Origin: a virus
DNA: 33,657 bases
Reading direction: 5' to 3' (one strand)
IMG/VR virus record: IMGVR_UViG_3300006880_000037
Location: 1-33,657 of that record
A program made the position numbers and the translations under genes. The notes under the pieces are model-generated. The model saw nothing but the letters and a program-made list of their open reading frames with translations. It did no database searches and was not told where the DNA came from. Of this stretch, positions 17,148-22,917 are shown in pieces (position 1 is the stretch's first letter; each line of letters starts with the position of its first letter).

Positions 17148-18785
17148 TCAGGCACACACGAATGCGACCGTGGAGCTAGTTGCGCCGTTCGGGCAGAACT
17201 GGACCTCGACAACACGGGAGCCGCCGTTGCACACCTGCGCCACGAGCACGCCTTCCTCAGTGAACAGCGCCGTGTAGCGGTTCGTCGCGAGGTTGGTGGA
17301 GTCGTAGATGGTGTCGAGGCGGATCGTGTCGTCGGAGCCACGCAGCCAGGTACCCGCTGGGTAGGCCAGGAAGAACACCGAGTTGGGCCACGCCGTCAAC
17401 GGAGTCGGACCGCCGGGACCCGTCGCCAGACCCGCGAACGAGTCCTGCCAGTCGTACACGTACTGCAACCGGGCGCCTCGGGTGGTGAAGTAGCTGGCAA
17501 TCGTCGCGTCGGAGACGTTCAGCAACTCCACACCCATCCGGCGGGACAGGTCGGAACGCATGACCGCCGTAGCCCAGTGCGGCAGAACGATCTCGACCGT
17601 CTGGTTGAAGCTCATCCGGTTGCGGTAGCGGATGTCCTCAACCGTCATCTCCACCGCCGCCAGGAGACCCGAGGTGGCCGTCACGTCCAGCGGAACGTCC
17701 ACCGGAGGGTTGAGGTCGACGACCGTCGACCCAGCCACCATCTGGGCGATGATGAACTGGTTGAGCTTGTGCATGTGCGCGACGAGCGCGCCCCGGATGA
17801 ACCGCTCCACCAGCTCCGGATAGCCCCGACGCTGAAGGATCGAGCCGGTGATGCACAGACCCTCGACCTCCAGCCGGGTGTCCGTGAACGCCGGGCAGGG
17901 GATCTCCATGCAGGGCTTGGTCGTGTTGGCAATGACCTGGGCCTCGGTCTGGTGGAAGTAGCCCGCACCGCCGAAGATCGTCGCGAAGTCCGGACCCGGT
18001 GTAAACCGCAGACCACCCCGGGTGATCTGGACCTCCGGAATGTCGATCATTCCCTCGCCGGTCTCCAGCTCACACAGGTCGTAGATCGTCTGCGACGGAG
18101 CACACCAGCCAGCCGCCGCCACCAGACCCCCACCGGGGAGGCGCTTTTCGTTGGTGGCGTACTGGACGAGCTTCTCGTCGTCGTCACCCTTCGACTTCAG
18201 ATCATCGACAAAGTCTCTCTTGATTACCGCGACGCCGTGTCGGCCGGGCGATACACCGTAGGTGGCCATCCGCCGCTCGGCTGCCTTGGCCACGTCGAAC
18301 CACGACGTGAACTCGACCGCACCCGCGTCCGGGGATGCATGCACCATCGCCGCGAAGTCGACTGCCGGCTTGACCGGAGGGGCTGGGGTCTGCTTGGTCC
18401 GGCGCGCTACCGAAGCCACCCGGGGGGCAGCGGTAACAGCCGCCTCCGGCTCCGGCTCGTCGGCCGGCTCGTCCTCCGGGGTCTCCTCGGCGGCTTCCTC
18501 GTCCTCGGGCTCCAGCTCGGCGGACAGGGAGGCGTGAGAGTTGGCCCGCGTCTTACGGGCGTCGCGTTCGGTGCGCGCGTCCCGCACGATGTCCCGCAGA
18601 CCCTCCAAGGTTCGGATGTCCTGTTCGGTCACCGCATCCGCTGACTTGTCGCGGATCGGTGCGGCGTTGGTGCGGGCCTGTGCTTCCAGATCACGCAGCT
18701 CGTCAACGGTCAGCGTCGCCATGTGCGCGCTGCGCTGCTCCGGCGTCCAGCCGGCGTAGCTTGCAAGGAACTCCAAAAACTCCAC
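17148..18785 (-). CDS. Major capsid protein with N-terminal delta/scaffold region
   Basis: I prefer GTG 18785 (545 residues, start VEFLEFLASYAGWT) because GGAG lies 6 bases upstream. GTG 18842 would add 19 residues of unlikely sequence. Residues 1-95 are helical and charged. About 95-120 is a strongly acidic linker (ELEPEDEEAAEETPEDEPAD), together forming a scaffold-like delta region expected to be removed by the protease. The rest matches actinophage HK97-fold capsid proteins: GGGLVAAAGWCAPSQTIYDL, VIANTTKPCMEIPCP, VEIVLPHWATAVMRSDLSRR and a C-terminal WLRGSDDTIRLDTIYDST. No separate scaffold gene is seen. Confidence 0.9.
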   Translation of the reverse strand: MEFLEFLASYAGWTPEQRSAHMATLTVDELRDLEAQARTNAAPIRDKSADAVTEQDIRTLEGLRDIVRDARTERDARKTRANSHASLSAELEPEDEEAAEETPEDEPADEPEPEAAVTAAPRVASVARRTKQTPAPPVKPAVDFAAMVHASPDAGAVEFTSWFDVAKAAERRMATYGVSPGRHGVAVIKRDFVDDLKSKGDDDEKLVQYATNEKRLPGGGLVAAAGWCAPSQTIYDLCELETGEGMIDIPEVQITRGGLRFTPGPDFATIFGGAGYFHQTEAQVIANTTKPCMEIPCPAFTDTRLEVEGLCITGSILQRRGYPELVERFIRGALVAHMHKLNQFIIAQMVAGSTVVDLNPPVDVPLDVTATSGLLAAVEMTVEDIRYRNRMSFNQTVEIVLPHWATAVMRSDLSRRMGVELLNVSDATIASYFTTRGARLQYVYDWQDSFAGLATGPGGPTPLTAWPNSVFFLAYPAGTWLRGSDDTIRLDTIYDSTNLATNRYTALFTEEGVLVAQVCNGGSRVVEVQFCPNGATSSTVAFVCA

Positions 18786-18889
18786 GGGGTGCTCCAGGGC
18801 AGGGTGAACGGAGGTGGGGAATCGTCCGCCCGGCCGGCTCACAGCTCAGCACCTTGCGTGATCTACGGGGAAGGTTAGGCGATAGGCAC

Positions 18890-18929
18890 AAAAAAAGCCA
18901 GCTTCCCACCGGTCCGGTGGGAAGCTGGC
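18890..18929 (-). terminator. Near-perfect rho-independent terminator upstream of the capsid gene
   Basis: A 16-bp perfect stem (18897-18912 with 18914-18929; one central base, so the real loop is a few bases). Read leftwards it is followed at once by seven U (A-tract 18890-18896). It ends transcripts of the accessory block coming from the right, so the capsid operon must have its own promoter in 18786-18889. I see no strong sigma-70 match there. Confidence 0.95.
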
Positions 18930-18976
18930 TTCTCTGGCTGGCCCCACGAGGAGGAGTCGTGGAGCGGAACAGCAGT

Positions 18977-19525: not shown

Positions 19526-19705
19526 TCACTCTGGCTCGATTGTCACCCGAATCCTCATCGGTTGGCCCATGGCCTCCCAAGCCGTCTTCCGCATATACAA
19601 CGAACCCACCACCCGGGGTCCGCCGGCCTGGGGCCGGTCCTCCACGAAAACCATCGTGGTCTTTGTCTCGTGGTCCCAATCGAACCACAGCTCAGGCTTC
19701 TCCAT
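19526..19705 (-). CDS. Small hypothetical protein
   Basis: A 59-residue protein from ATG 19705 with GGAGAGGG directly upstream; the start overlaps the preceding gene by 14 bases. It begins MEKPELWFDWDHETKTTMVF and ends IRVTIEPE. It has an alternating strand/turn pattern with several Trp and Met residues (SLYMRKTAWEAMGQPM). It is acidic, with no membrane segment or known motif. It is the last gene of the accessory operon before the hairpin at 19486-19519. Function unknown. Confidence 0.65.
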   Translation of the reverse strand: MEKPELWFDWDHETKTTMVFVEDRPQAGGPRVVGSLYMRKTAWEAMGQPMRIRVTIEPE

Positions 19706-20006
19706 CCCTCTCCTTCACCAGCCGAGCCGCCTGATTCCGGGCGAACTCCGCCTGTGCCCACAGACCTCCTGAACAGAACTCCAACCACCTAGCCAGCAGC
19801 TCCCACTCCTGGGGATCGTTCTCCGGGTACTCGTCCGGCCGCCGTGGACGCCACTGCGGCCAGGCTGCACCATCCGTTGACGGCAGCTCCTCCATGACCT
19901 GCTTCCTGGACATCAGGCGCCAGCGGCTGGTCTGGCGTTGCAGCTCGTGCGTGATCGCCCGCACATGCTCCAGGACCACCACACGCGGGTTGCGCTCCTT
20001 GGCCAT
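19692..20006 (-). CDS. Small helical hypothetical protein
   Basis: A 104-residue protein from ATG 20006 behind a strong AGAAGGAGGAGAG. It is mostly helical: RVVVLEHVRAITHELQRQTS, then a Trp-rich middle (AAWPQWRPRRPDEYPENDPQ), then EWELLARWLEFCSGGLWAQA. It is basic at the N-terminus and acidic in the middle. No recognised domain. It follows the tRNA-like RNA region and overlaps the next gene by 14 bases, so the two are probably co-translated. Confidence 0.68.
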   Translation of the reverse strand: MAKERNPRVVVLEHVRAITHELQRQTSRWRLMSRKQVMEELPSTDGAAWPQWRPRRPDEYPENDPQEWELLARWLEFCSGGLWAQAEFARNQAARLVKERDGEA

Positions 20007-20031: not shown

Positions 20032-20129
20032 CCCCACCGGGAGGTGTCGAACCTCCACGCCGGCTGCGCGCGCAGTCCGGTTCTCCCGGCAATGGCCGGT
20101 CACCAGCGAGTCCACTGCTGGCGGTGAGG
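20032..20129 (-). ncRNA. tRNA-like element 1
   Basis: Read leftwards, an 8-bp acceptor-like stem (CCTCACCG with CGGTGGGG, one G-U) encloses three parts: a D-like arm CCAGC/GCTGG with a 9-base loop containing GG; a GC-rich central part; and a 5-bp T-arm GGAGG/CCTCC with loop TTCGACA, a near-exact B-box (GGTTCGACACC). A normal 7-base anticodon loop cannot be drawn by eye. It lies in the gap before the gene starting at 20006. It could be a degenerate tRNA gene, a structured leader, or a tRNA mimic. Confidence 0.4.
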
Positions 20130-20297
20130 GGAAACGAGAAAGCAAGGTGCCGGCTGGGGTCTGGGCAGTGGAGGCTGCCCCTGTACCCTCTCGGCTCGGC
20201 CGCCGCACCGGACAGGCCCCCACCCGTCCGGCTGCTCCTCGGATACCCCCGGGGTTCCCGGTAGGCCGGGTCTTGGGGATACCGCACCTCGCTGAGT
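20130..20297 (-). other. Structured non-coding spacer between tRNA-like elements
   Basis: No gene supported. Read leftwards there are several GC-rich hairpins, for example CCGGAC/GTCCGG and GGGCAG/CTGCCC, and a pyrimidine-rich CTTTCTCGTTTCCCC end close to element 1. This may be a continuation of one folded RNA region spanning 20032-20383. Confidence 0.4.
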
Positions 20298-20383
20298 AAG
20301 CCGTGCGGGAATCGAACCCAGCAACGAGTCACCTGCCCCCGAGCAAGCTCTCGGGGGCACCCGCACCAGCGGGAACACGGCTC
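20298..20383 (-). ncRNA. tRNA-like element 2
   Basis: Read leftwards, an acceptor-like stem GAGCCGTG/CACGGCTT (8 bp, one G-U) encloses a D-like arm CCCGC/GCGGG with loop TGGT, a 9-bp hairpin with loop AGCTTG in place of an anticodon arm, and a T-arm with a perfect B-box GGTTCGATTCC. The element begins 7 bases after the stop of the 20390-20578 gene. The oversized central hairpin argues against an ordinary tRNA. Confidence 0.42.
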
Positions 20384-20389
20384 CATGAT

Positions 20390-20578
20390 CTAGTCCACGT
20401 AGGCTTGGATGGCGGCTGTCTCCAACAGCCAACGGTCACCAGCTTGCGTCAGGCTCGGGCTGTACCGCGCGACCCGGAGCAGCACCCGGACTACCTCGAC
20501 GAACTCCTGTTGTGCGGCATCGTTCGGAAGCGCCGCCCAAACAGTGTCGAGCGCCTCGTACAGTTCCTTGGCTTCCAT
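20390..20578 (-). CDS. Small helical hypothetical protein
   Basis: A 62-residue acidic protein; ATG 20578 shares one base with the upstream stop (TGATG). It appears entirely helical (MEAKELYEALDTVWAALPND; FVEVVRVLLRVARYSPSLTQ). No motif recognised. It is coupled to the upstream gene and followed by the tRNA-like element 2. Confidence 0.65.
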   Translation of the reverse strand: MEAKELYEALDTVWAALPNDAAQQEFVEVVRVLLRVARYSPSLTQAGDRWLLETAAIQAYVD

Positions 20579-21018
20579 CACGCCGCCAATGGGAGTCGCT
20601 GCCAGCCGGTCCGAGCGCATTCGTAACGCCGGCCCTCGAAGGTCACCGTGTCGCCGACGCTCAGCGCTCGCCAGTCGTGCCCGTGGCCAACGATCTTGTT
20701 GAACACGGCCTTCGCTCGCCAGTCGTCGCCATCGGCGAGCGACCATGGCGCGTTCGTGGCAACGAACACAGCCTCGGCCCAGTGCTCGTCCGTGTCGCCC
20801 ACCCGCATGTCGTACGACACGTCGATGGTGATCTCGGTCTGCTTTGCCCCGGGCCGGTAGCCGTCACACATGGGGATGTAGCCACCGAGGAGAACGGTGT
20901 CGCCGTAGCGCTCGCTCTCGGTGAGACCAACGGTGATCTTCCCCCGCAAGTCTTGAGCCTGTGCTTCGTCGGCTAGATAGGCCATCGCGCCATCGACACC
21001 GAGATGGGTCAGGTCCAT
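20578..21018 (-). CDS. Hypothetical protein
   Basis: A 146-residue acidic protein from ATG 21018 with a strong AAAGGAGGAGA site. It is a mixed alpha/beta protein with a helix at 9-25 (VDGAMAYLADEAQAQDLRGK) and strands such as KQTEITIDVSYDMRVGD and AEAVFVATNAPWS. It ends GDTVTFEGRRYECARTGWQR, a small SH3-like strand pattern. No enzyme motif is visible. It is the second gene of the leftward operon controlled from the 22370 promoter. Confidence 0.68.
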   Translation of the reverse strand: MDLTHLGVDGAMAYLADEAQAQDLRGKITVGLTESERYGDTVLLGGYIPMCDGYRPGAKQTEITIDVSYDMRVGDTDEHWAEAVFVATNAPWSLADGDDWRAKAVFNKIVGHGHDWRALSVGDTVTFEGRRYECARTGWQRLPLAA

Positions 21019-21083
21019 GTCTCCTCCTTTGGTTGAACGCCCAGGACGTGGAGCCGACCGGAGCCGGCCCCCATCCTTACCGT

Positions 21084-21953
21084 TCAGCCCACTACCAGAG
21101 CGGGATCGAGCGCCGGCTGGCCGGGGCTCGTCGGAGCTACCGAGGCCACGTAGTCCTCGTCCAGCTCGATGGCGATCTGCGAGAACAGCGAAGCGTTCGC
21201 GGCAGCCCTGTCAGCCTTACGCTCCAGGCGCCGAATCCGCCGCTGCTCCTTCTTGGCCTGCTCGGCGTCCACAGCGTCCTGTGCAGCCGCAGCCGCGATC
21301 AGCCGGTTGGCTGCACGGGTCTGCGCAGTGGCGGTCTTCCGCGTGCACTGGGCAGCGGAGGTGCAGGCGGTGGGGTGGGTGCAGCCGGCCAACGTCGGGA
21401 TCGTGACGGTTACGGCGATGGCTGCTTCCTGGGCCTCCAGCTCGCTGAAGTCGGCGTCGATAGCGGTGGCTGCCCACTTGATGGCGCCAACCGCACCGAC
21501 GGTGATAGCGAAGACGACCGCCTCGACGATCCAGCCGACGTGGGCGAGCATGGTCTCGATCGGCAGCGAGGCCAGGATGTTGATCAGCATGCTCACCGCG
21601 ATGAGGCCGATGAACACCCGGGTGGCGCGCTTCTTGGCCTCACGCTTCATGGCCGTGGTCTGCGCCTGGACCATCATGGCCAGCATCCCCAGGTCGAAGA
21701 CGCCGGGGATGAGTAGGCCGAGCTTGCCGACGATGCCGGACAGGAAGCCGGCCTGGTGGCCGTAGGTGGCCAGGAGGCCGACGACCAACACCAGGTTGGT
21801 CATGTGCTTGACGTTCTTGATCGCCGCCAGCATCTCCGGTACGGCGGTCTTGGAGCGCTTGCGCCGGTACGCGGCGGCTGGGCTCTCATTGGGGTCTTCG
21901 AGCGCCTGCGCGACCTGGTTGAGGGCGTTGGCGGTCTTGAAGAGGTTGAACAT
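21084..21953 (-). CDS. Multi-pass membrane protein, DUF2637/SpdB-like
   Basis: A 289-residue protein from ATG 21953 (GGAGGGACACC upstream). Hydrophobic segments lie at about 50-70 (HMTNLVLVVGLLATYGHQAG), 75-95 (KLGLLIPGVFDLGMLAMMVQ), 112-130 (VFIGLIAVSMLINILASLP) and 140-162 (GWIVEAVVFAITVGAVGAIK). The pattern Y-H near the first helix, P-x-VFD in the second and N-x-A in the third resembles DUF2637 (SpdB-type) membrane proteins of actinobacterial mobile elements. The C-terminal 110 residues are cytoplasm-like, with a CTHPTACTSAAQCTRK Cys cluster and a basic coiled coil. First gene of its operon. Confidence 0.65.
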   Translation of the reverse strand: MFNLFKTANALNQVAQALEDPNESPAAAYRRKRSKTAVPEMLAAIKNVKHMTNLVLVVGLLATYGHQAGFLSGIVGKLGLLIPGVFDLGMLAMMVQAQTTAMKREAKKRATRVFIGLIAVSMLINILASLPIETMLAHVGWIVEAVVFAITVGAVGAIKWAATAIDADFSELEAQEAAIAVTVTIPTLAGCTHPTACTSAAQCTRKTATAQTRAANRLIAAAAAQDAVDAEQAKKEQRRIRRLERKADRAAANASLFSQIAIELDEDYVASVAPTSPGQPALDPALVVG

Positions 21954-22050
21954 GGTGTCCCTCCAAAGGACTAGGACGGTCCTGGGTGCTGCTCACGTGG
22001 GAGCACTCGGCAGGACCGAAGACTGTGGTTGCGGCGCTTGTGCGCCAGCG

Positions 22051-22147
22051 CGGGTCTGGGAGGAGTCGAACCTCCCGCGTCAGGACTTACTGGTGGCGTT
22101 CGTACCCGGCCTGACTGCCGCCTCCCCGTAGGGATCCTGCGGACCCG
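22051..22147 (-). ncRNA. tRNA-like element 3
   Basis: Read leftwards, CGGGTCCG (22147-22140) pairs with CAGACCCG (22058-22051) with one mismatch. The T-arm is GGAGG-TTCGACT-CCTCC with a perfect B-box GGTTCGACTCC. The middle holds TCCC/GGGA with loop TACG and a GTCAGG/CCTGAC long-range stem, again with no clear anticodon loop. It sits in the long leader of the 21084-21953 gene. Two further copies lie downstream on the same transcript. Confidence 0.4.
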
Positions 22148-22353: not shown

Positions 22354-22372
22354 TGTCTTGCCTCCCTATACA
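22354..22372. promoter_or_regulatory. Operator dyad A1 over the leftward start site
   Basis: TGTCTT-N7-TATACA. It covers the end of the -10 element and the expected start point (about 22363) of the leftward promoter. Confidence 0.65.
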
Positions 22373-22398
22373 GTACGAGAGCTTACCCGTCCTGTCAA
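22370..22398 (-). promoter_or_regulatory. Leftward promoter of the accessory operon
   Basis: Read leftwards, a consensus -35 TTGACA (22398-22393), a 17-base spacer and -10 TACTGT (22375-22370). It drives the leader with tRNA-like element 3 and the genes 21953-19526. It is bracketed by two operator dyads. Confidence 0.7.
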
Positions 22399-22456: not shown

Positions 22457-22475
22457 TGTATGGTGTCAGTATACA
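22457..22475. promoter_or_regulatory. Operator dyad A3 at the rightward cassette promoter
   Basis: TGTATG-N7-TATACA, 20 bases before the GTG at 22496. The right half TATACA (22470-22475) could itself be the -10 of a rightward promoter; no good -35 is visible. Confidence 0.7.
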
Positions 22476-22495
22476 GGTCCGACCGAGGAGGAGAA

Positions 22496-22714
22496 GTGGC
22501 CCGACTAACCAAGAAGCACCTGGCCGCCGCACTCGCCCGCACCCAGTACGCAGTTCGTGCCGGGGTCACCGACGAGGGCTTCATCTACCGCCAGCTCCTG
22601 CGCAGCTACAGCCTCAGCGACCTAACTGAGATGGTCCGTCGGCGTCGGCTCGACATCGCCAACGGCAAGCCCGGCACCCGTGGCCTCACTCTCGCTGACC
22701 TCCCCGAGGTGTGA
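22496..22714 (+). CDS. Small basic hypothetical protein, first gene of a rightward cassette
   Basis: A 72-residue protein; GTG 22496 follows GAGGAGGAGAA. It begins MARLTKKHLAAALARTQYAV. Helix-rich and basic, with FIYRQLLRSYSLSDLTEMVR in the middle, then RRRLDIANGKPGTRG. The charge and size would suit an antitoxin or DNA/RNA-binding protein, but it is not HicB-like. The stop overlaps the next gene's GTG as GTGA, so the HicA-like product is coupled to it. The operator at 22457-22475 lies just upstream. Confidence 0.68.
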   Translation: MARLTKKHLAAALARTQYAVRAGVTDEGFIYRQLLRSYSLSDLTEMVRRRRLDIANGKPGTRGLTLADLPEV

Positions 22715-22917
22715 CGGGGATGAGCGATTGGGCCAAGCTCCTCCGGGAGCTACGACGGCAAGGCTTCGAACCGGTGCTGTGTCGGGGTGGCCACTACAAG
22801 GTCTACCTGGCCGGCAAGCTCATCTCGACAATGCCCAGCTCCTGCGGGGGTGGGCGTGGACTCCGTAATGCGGTGGGCCTGCTCCGCCGCGCCGGTTTCG
22901 AATGGAAGGGACGATGA
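22711..22917 (+). CDS. HicA-like double-stranded-RNA-binding-fold protein
   Basis: A 68-residue protein starting at GTG 22711 (GTGA overlap); ATG 22720 is an alternative. It follows the HicA/YcfA pattern: helix LLRELRRQGFEPV, strand LCRGGHYKVYLAGKLI with the conserved His (H28) at the site of the HicA catalytic His, then SSCGGGRGLRNAVGLLRRAGFEW, matching the final helix with its aromatic end. HicA toxins are mRNA interferases normally paired with HicB. No HicB is present, so this may be an orphan, or a phage protein that has kept only RNA binding. Confidence 0.7.
   Translation: MTGMSDWAKLLRELRRQGFEPVLCRGGHYKVYLAGKLISTMPSSCGGGRGLRNAVGLLRRAGFEWKGR

Follow-up and report, generated by a model that had tools for sequence, protein, structure and literature searches.

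RNAs that mimic tRNA without carrying an anticodon, such as tmRNA and YrlA, are already known. The usual explanations of phage tRNA genes are codon supply and resistance to anticodon nucleases; recurrent tRNA bodies that do not decode would be inexplicable by codon supply and would mark the acceptor end or the elbow as a contested surface. In the open-licence literature, we came across no account of anticodon-less tRNAs that are free-standing, in normal order, and recurrent in phages. The closest described systems are related to such RNAs in different ways. YrlA imitates tRNA in its D, T, and acceptor arms and is modified by DusA and TruB (PMC8394870). tRNA-Other of Bacillus cereus is tRNA-like, is encoded on a mobile island, and is unused in translation; it has a Trp anticodon and has been reported within a larger regulatory RNA (PMC3399842). 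For phage tRNAs that evade tRNA-targeting defenses, the anticodon matters for the effect (PMC10264068, PMC11555353).

The stretch of DNA analyzed here (the window) is the full length of an IMG/VR virus fragment of 33,657 bases. It carries the genes of a tailed phage, including those for terminase, portal, a MuF-type head protein, the major capsid protein, and tape measure. The capsid relatives of the window are mostly actinobacteriophages, and two cellular contigs with a relative are from Streptosporangium and Streptomyces. The record is a fragment of an actinobacteriophage, and the phage is one of a soil bacterium. The stretch between the minor head genes and the capsid gene, where relatives often have tRNA genes, holds three tRNA-like elements. 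The relevant features are as follows.

17148-18842, minus strand: major capsid gene (phrog_777), used as the query for finding relatives
19692-20006, minus strand: coding ORF of 104 amino acids, downstream of element 1
20032-20129, minus strand: element 1, with an acceptor stem of 7 to 8 bp, a D-like arm, a hairpin of 5 bp with a 4-nt loop, a long variable arm, and a T arm
20297-20384, minus strand: element 2, with an acceptor stem of 7 to 8 bp, a D arm with a TGGT loop, a hairpin of 9 to 10 bp, and a 4-bp T stem
20578-21018, minus strand: coding ORF of 146 amino acids, between elements 3 and 2
21084-21953, minus strand: membrane-type ORF with a weak DUF2637 match, directly downstream of element 3
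22050-22147, minus strand: element 3, with a T arm, six of seven acceptor pairs, and no clear D arm
22370-22398, minus strand: possible promoter identified by eye, consisting of TTGACA (22393-22398), a 17-nt spacer, and TACTGT

The sequence-only reading had placed these elements in the noncoding gaps of one operon. Codon-usage scoring agrees that the gaps holding elements 1, 2, and 3 are noncoding. That the three elements share one transcript is inferred from their co-orientation; a consensus promoter scan found none, and the candidate identified by eye was not confirmed by that scan. Its -35 hexamer is conserved in L006, the nearest relative (78% in the capsid), as is the DUF2637 ORF (58%). 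This ORF also gave the single result of PADLOC on the window ORFs, a weak Csx1-type match.

In element 1, the acceptor strands CCTCACCG/CGGTGGGG form an 8-bp stem when position 20129 is included. The D-like arm is CCAGC-AGTGGACTC-GCTGG, the hairpin CCGGC-CATT-GCCGG occupies the anticodon position, the T arm is GGAGG-TTCGACA-CCTCC, and the base next to the discriminator is C. The element lacks T8 and has no Rfam match. Element 2 pairs GAGCCGTG with CACGGCTT and has a D arm (CCCGC-TGGT-GCGGG) and a T arm (TGGG-TTCGATT-CCCG); its anticodon position is occupied by a hairpin of 9 to 10 bp with a 6-nt loop. No T arm in the window is better than that of element 3 (GGAGG-TTCGACT-CCTCC). As first described, two elements have a D-like arm, namely, 1 and 2, and element 3 has no convincing one; the acceptor stem is 7 to 8 bp in elements 1 and 2, and element 3 has six pairs of seven.

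To compare these structures with chance, we used a descriptor that combines a T arm, an acceptor stem at variable distance, and a D arm and leaves the anticodon region unconstrained. The window contains exactly two matches, 20032-20128 and 20297-20383, both on the minus strand, with scores of 23.3 and 22.0. None of 40 shuffled windows reached a score of 20, and 1.34 Mb of related DNA gave, after shuffling, a single match. Element 3 does not pass the D-arm requirement of the descriptor; elements of its type (a T arm with six of seven acceptor pairs) numbered 0 in 150 shuffled windows versus 1 in the real one. The observation of three tRNA-like elements, each with a T arm and a pairing acceptor, is confirmed. 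The fold z scores are -2.6 for element 1, -4.0 for element 2, and only -0.8 for element 3, which is weaker than the other two and folds no better than shuffled sequence.

Standard predictors do not turn these elements into tRNAs. ARAGORN reported no tRNA and no tmRNA in the window, and as such no cloverleaf for any of the three elements; Rfam at gathering thresholds likewise gave no hits. At a loose threshold, the covariance search returned only a match of element 2 to tRNA-Sec (RF01852; 29.5 bits, E value of 0.0038, against a gathering score of 47). A 7-nt loop adjoins a D arm only in element 1, where it is weak, GU-rich, and without T33; neither element 1 nor element 2 has a credible 7-nt anticodon loop. 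Measured against canonical tRNA (RF00005), elements 1 and 2 have the 7-bp acceptor, the D arm, and the T arm with its TTCRA loop, and no window element has the 5-bp anticodon stem with a 7-nt loop and U33. Acceptor, D, and T arms in normal order without a 7-nt T33 loop are found in elements 1 and 2 directly and in element 3 only via its ortholog.

Several known RNAs resemble this arrangement in part. YrlA (RF02553) is likewise a D/T/acceptor mimic without an anticodon, but it is circularly permuted, is closed at the acceptor end, and carries a stem that binds Ro, whereas the window elements have normal order and open acceptor ends. Element 2 recalls tRNA-Sec and the 8/4 or 9/3 allo-tRNAs in its 8/4-like acceptor branch, its TGGT D loop, and its weak RF01852 match; it differs in lacking a 7-nt anticodon loop and in scoring below the gathering cutoff. 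tRNA-Other is comparable as a tRNA-like RNA outside translation, and its Trp anticodon sets it apart. Defense-evading phage tRNAs link phage tRNA genes to host attack on tRNA, with the difference that the anticodon loop is absent here.

The alignment of L006 to the window covers both sides of element 3, whose positional ortholog is L006:6703-6778. This ortholog has a 7-bp acceptor, a D arm (GCACC-TGGT-GGTGC), a T arm, and a 4-nt loop at the place of the anticodon. The nearest relative therefore keeps tRNA-like pairing at the position of element 3, in agreement with the sequence-only reading, which had tied its case to such conservation. The flanks align well, and the element itself is the part most changed, the T loop excepted. 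A second element in L006 (8405-8481) reaches the Rfam tRNA cutoff (32.6 bits) and lacks a canonical anticodon arm. For elements 1 and 2, no ortholog could be aligned. L004 is near-identical to the window (99.95%, with 9 differences in 16.6 kb); one of its base changes falls in the acceptor of element 2 and breaks a pair, which counts against strong selection on element 2.

The anticodon-less design recurs in dozens of phages. A scan of related phage contigs for normal-order matches, with overlaps removed, gave 179 tRNA-like matches: 71 canonical (a 7-nt T33 loop), 27 with a 7-nt loop lacking T33, and 81 without a 7-nt loop. In a control of three tRNA-rich relatives, 66 of 77 matches were canonical, and several of the others look like normal tRNAs misread by the script; the excess of loop-less elements elsewhere is accordingly real, with an error of about 10% on individual calls. 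C follows the discriminator in 69 of the 81 strict elements, compared with 130 of 137 canonical tRNAs, and this base was not a selection criterion. Six contigs (G062, G073, G074, G080, G098, and G006) have 4 to 6 elements without a 7-nt loop each, close together and mostly on one strand. Arrays of 4 to 7 elements occur in relatives, with several elements within 1 to 3 kb. A blastn search of these arrays against phage isolates found nothing, as did one of the window's element region against plasmids and phage isolates.

Within this class, element lengths range from 55 to 131 nt and the distance from D to T arm from 9 to 78 nt; the length of the arm varies too widely to align the whole cleanly. 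In one subfamily of seven members, whose hairpin loops are about 3 to 5 nt, compensatory changes are found both in the acceptor and in the hairpin that replaces the anticodon arm; the covariation score was reached in 0 of 500 shuffles. A further group is marked by an acceptor end, CGC...GCAC, that does not vary. At least 13 elements (e.g., G006:15147-15217) share this 5'-CGC/GCAC-3' end while their inner pairs vary; in this group C1 stands opposite A72, or the acceptor is 6 bp, and GTAC precedes several members. Arm sequences such as CGGTGGACCGGTCCC..TGGCCG recur on different acceptors. A search for a partner gene of the elements found none. In the relatives, RtcB was detected in 0 of 36 and an RNA ligase in 1 of 36, which gives no support for tRNA repair.

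The combination of G3:U70 with A73 is the known alanine identity. G3:U70 occurs in 11 of the 81 strict elements (L006:6703-6778 and 10 others), all 11 of which have A73; its excess over canonical tRNAs is modest (Fisher P of 0.019). This subset resembles the tRNA-like domain of tmRNA (RF00023), a tRNA-Ala-like body without an anticodon arm, and two relatives gave weak RF00023 matches. In contrast to tmRNA, neither an mRNA-like domain nor a reading frame for a tag was found here, the elements are 55 to 131 nt long, and those of the window lack G3:U70.

In some elements, the anticodon arm is missing altogether. The clear cases in three relatives are 57 to 59 nt long, with the T arm 9 to 10 nt after the D arm. 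A DNA pattern for this arm-less arrangement matched at least 120 stretches of IMG/VR, with 123 matches in these. At least 80 of the 123 matches listed combine a perfect 7-bp acceptor with a good T stem; a 7/7 acceptor is present in 67% of the matches listed, compared with 2.4% for random re-pairing of acceptor strands, and at least 57 different acceptor pairs occur among them. One IMG/VR element, of 58 to 60 nt, is also present in the Lactobacillus brevis phages LBR48, Lb, and 3-SAC12. The arm-less tRNA is annotated as tRNA-OTHER, pseudo, in 3-SAC12 (MK504442.1) and is unannotated in the other two. As these phages are cultured, the question of function is testable at once. The 3-SAC12 loci are 39433-39490 and 39553-39621; in phage Lb, the element at 21372-21431 lies between genes for a transcriptional regulator and terminase. 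A 180-kb record (L298, IMGVR_UViG_2529292852_000001) has three different arm-less tRNAs.

Several related phages also carry permuted elements, in the order T arm, 3' acceptor, 3 to 11 nt, 5' acceptor, and D arm. This order is found in elements of G007, G021-G023, and others. Since TROVE genes co-occur in phages carrying them (G007, G021-G023, G055, G058, and G059, all with permuted elements), these are most likely Y RNAs of the YrlA type; in several phages the TROVE/Ro60 gene lies next to them. TROVE was undetected in G003, G035, and G042 despite their permuted elements, PF05731 was not found in the nearest relatives G001-G004, and the descriptor found no permuted element in the window. The permuted elements noted are four at L010:8045-8970 (minus strand) and those of G003, G021-G023, G035, G042, G055, G058, G059, G068, G069, and G103. 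Those of L010 were considered as permuted tRNA genes, a reading rejected in view of the adjoining TROVE gene and sub-threshold YrlA matches.

The sequence-only reading had offered degenerate tRNAs, tRNA mimics, processing signals, and integration-site pieces as explanations. We favor mimicry, because the design recurs, one subfamily covaries, acceptor-end families recur, and the arm is completely lost in places; the presence of permuted YrlA-like elements in some of the same phages is counted on the same side. Our proposal, which we consider about evenly balanced between right and wrong, is that the elements imitate the tRNA body without decoding and offer its acceptor-elbow half to proteins that bind tRNA, perhaps as decoys. 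With the acceptor, D, and T arms retained but the anticodon arm closed, enlarged, or missing, the class would be unable to decode, and phages seem to employ tRNA bodies for a purpose besides reading codons. The elements would be transcribed with the phage genes and excised by the host tRNA-maturation machinery, with RNase P forming the 5' end, followed by 3' trimming and CCA addition. The matured mimics could then occupy or recruit proteins that read the acceptor end or the elbow; candidates are toxins or defense enzymes acting on acceptor ends, tRNA-modifying enzymes, and SmpB, and, where G3:U70 and A73 are present, AlaRS or EF-Tu. The variety of acceptor ends would be explained if the elements were decoys for tRNA-directed toxins or defenses; subsets may instead recruit AlaRS, EF-Tu, SmpB, or enzymes that modify tRNA. 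Read most simply, the acceptor-elbow half, which unites RNAs that have no decoding part, is what the phage needs for maturation in the manner of a tRNA and for contact with proteins that recognize the acceptor end or the elbow. More tentatively, and leaning slightly toward doubt, we suggest that phages widely encode free-standing tRNA bodies with the anticodon arm deleted or closed, often in arrays, which counter tRNA-targeting defenses or redirect tRNA-binding enzymes and are annotated as tRNA-OTHER, as pseudo, or not at all.

The main rival is punctuation of the transcript: RNase P and 3' enzymes would cut the tRNA body, thereby setting mRNA ends and stability, and the RNA would have no further role. 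Mitochondrial tRNAs set mRNA ends in this manner, and the acceptor/T-arm half suffices for RNase P. Elements 3, 2, and 1 lie between co-oriented genes, and the arm-less IMG/VR matches listed are mostly co-directional with their neighbors (54:14 downstream and 48:17 upstream). Cutting alone, however, needs neither arrays within 1 to 3 kb nor conserved acceptor-end identities, and we rate punctuation as rather unlikely.

Plain decay, in which drift has removed the anticodon of former phage tRNAs that are on the way to being lost, draws on the normal tRNAs that relatives carry in the same region, on the rapid turnover between the window and L006, on the broken pair in element 2 of L004, and on the weakness of element 3. 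Decay should nevertheless hit all arms, yet the acceptor, D, and T arms are paired, compensatory changes are present in one subfamily, and dozens of phages share the pattern. Arm-based selection of matches biases this comparison, a bias that does not explain the arm-less class or the covariation. Decay thus fits the class poorly and is unlikely overall, while possible for single elements. It is very improbable that the elements are tRNA-scaffolded small RNAs, in which a payload hairpin for antisense or protein binding replaces the anticodon arm and the body gives stability; the wide range of D-to-T lengths and the arm sequences recurring on different acceptors would suit such a scaffold, but in many elements the hairpin is short or the arm is absent. 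In prokaryotes, partial tRNA genes commonly arise from integration at att sites in host tRNA genes (PMC9897764). Ordinary fragments of this kind are hardly credible here and were rejected, as the elements have complete acceptor stems, 5' strand included, with D arms, and several different ones per genome lie inside gene regions.

Other features were observed around the elements. A divergent pair of small genes occupies 22460-22714 and 22711-22917 (plus strand), and the second ORF has a weak, sub-threshold match to the HicA toxin (E value of 0.0039). The spacer between elements 1 and 2 (20130-20296, minus strand) folds strongly (-86.6 kcal/mol, z score of -1.9) and is possibly another structured RNA. 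Upstream of the capsid gene, a 37-base near-perfect inverted repeat (18895-18931), which matches its own reverse complement at 97%, is probably a terminator-like hairpin.
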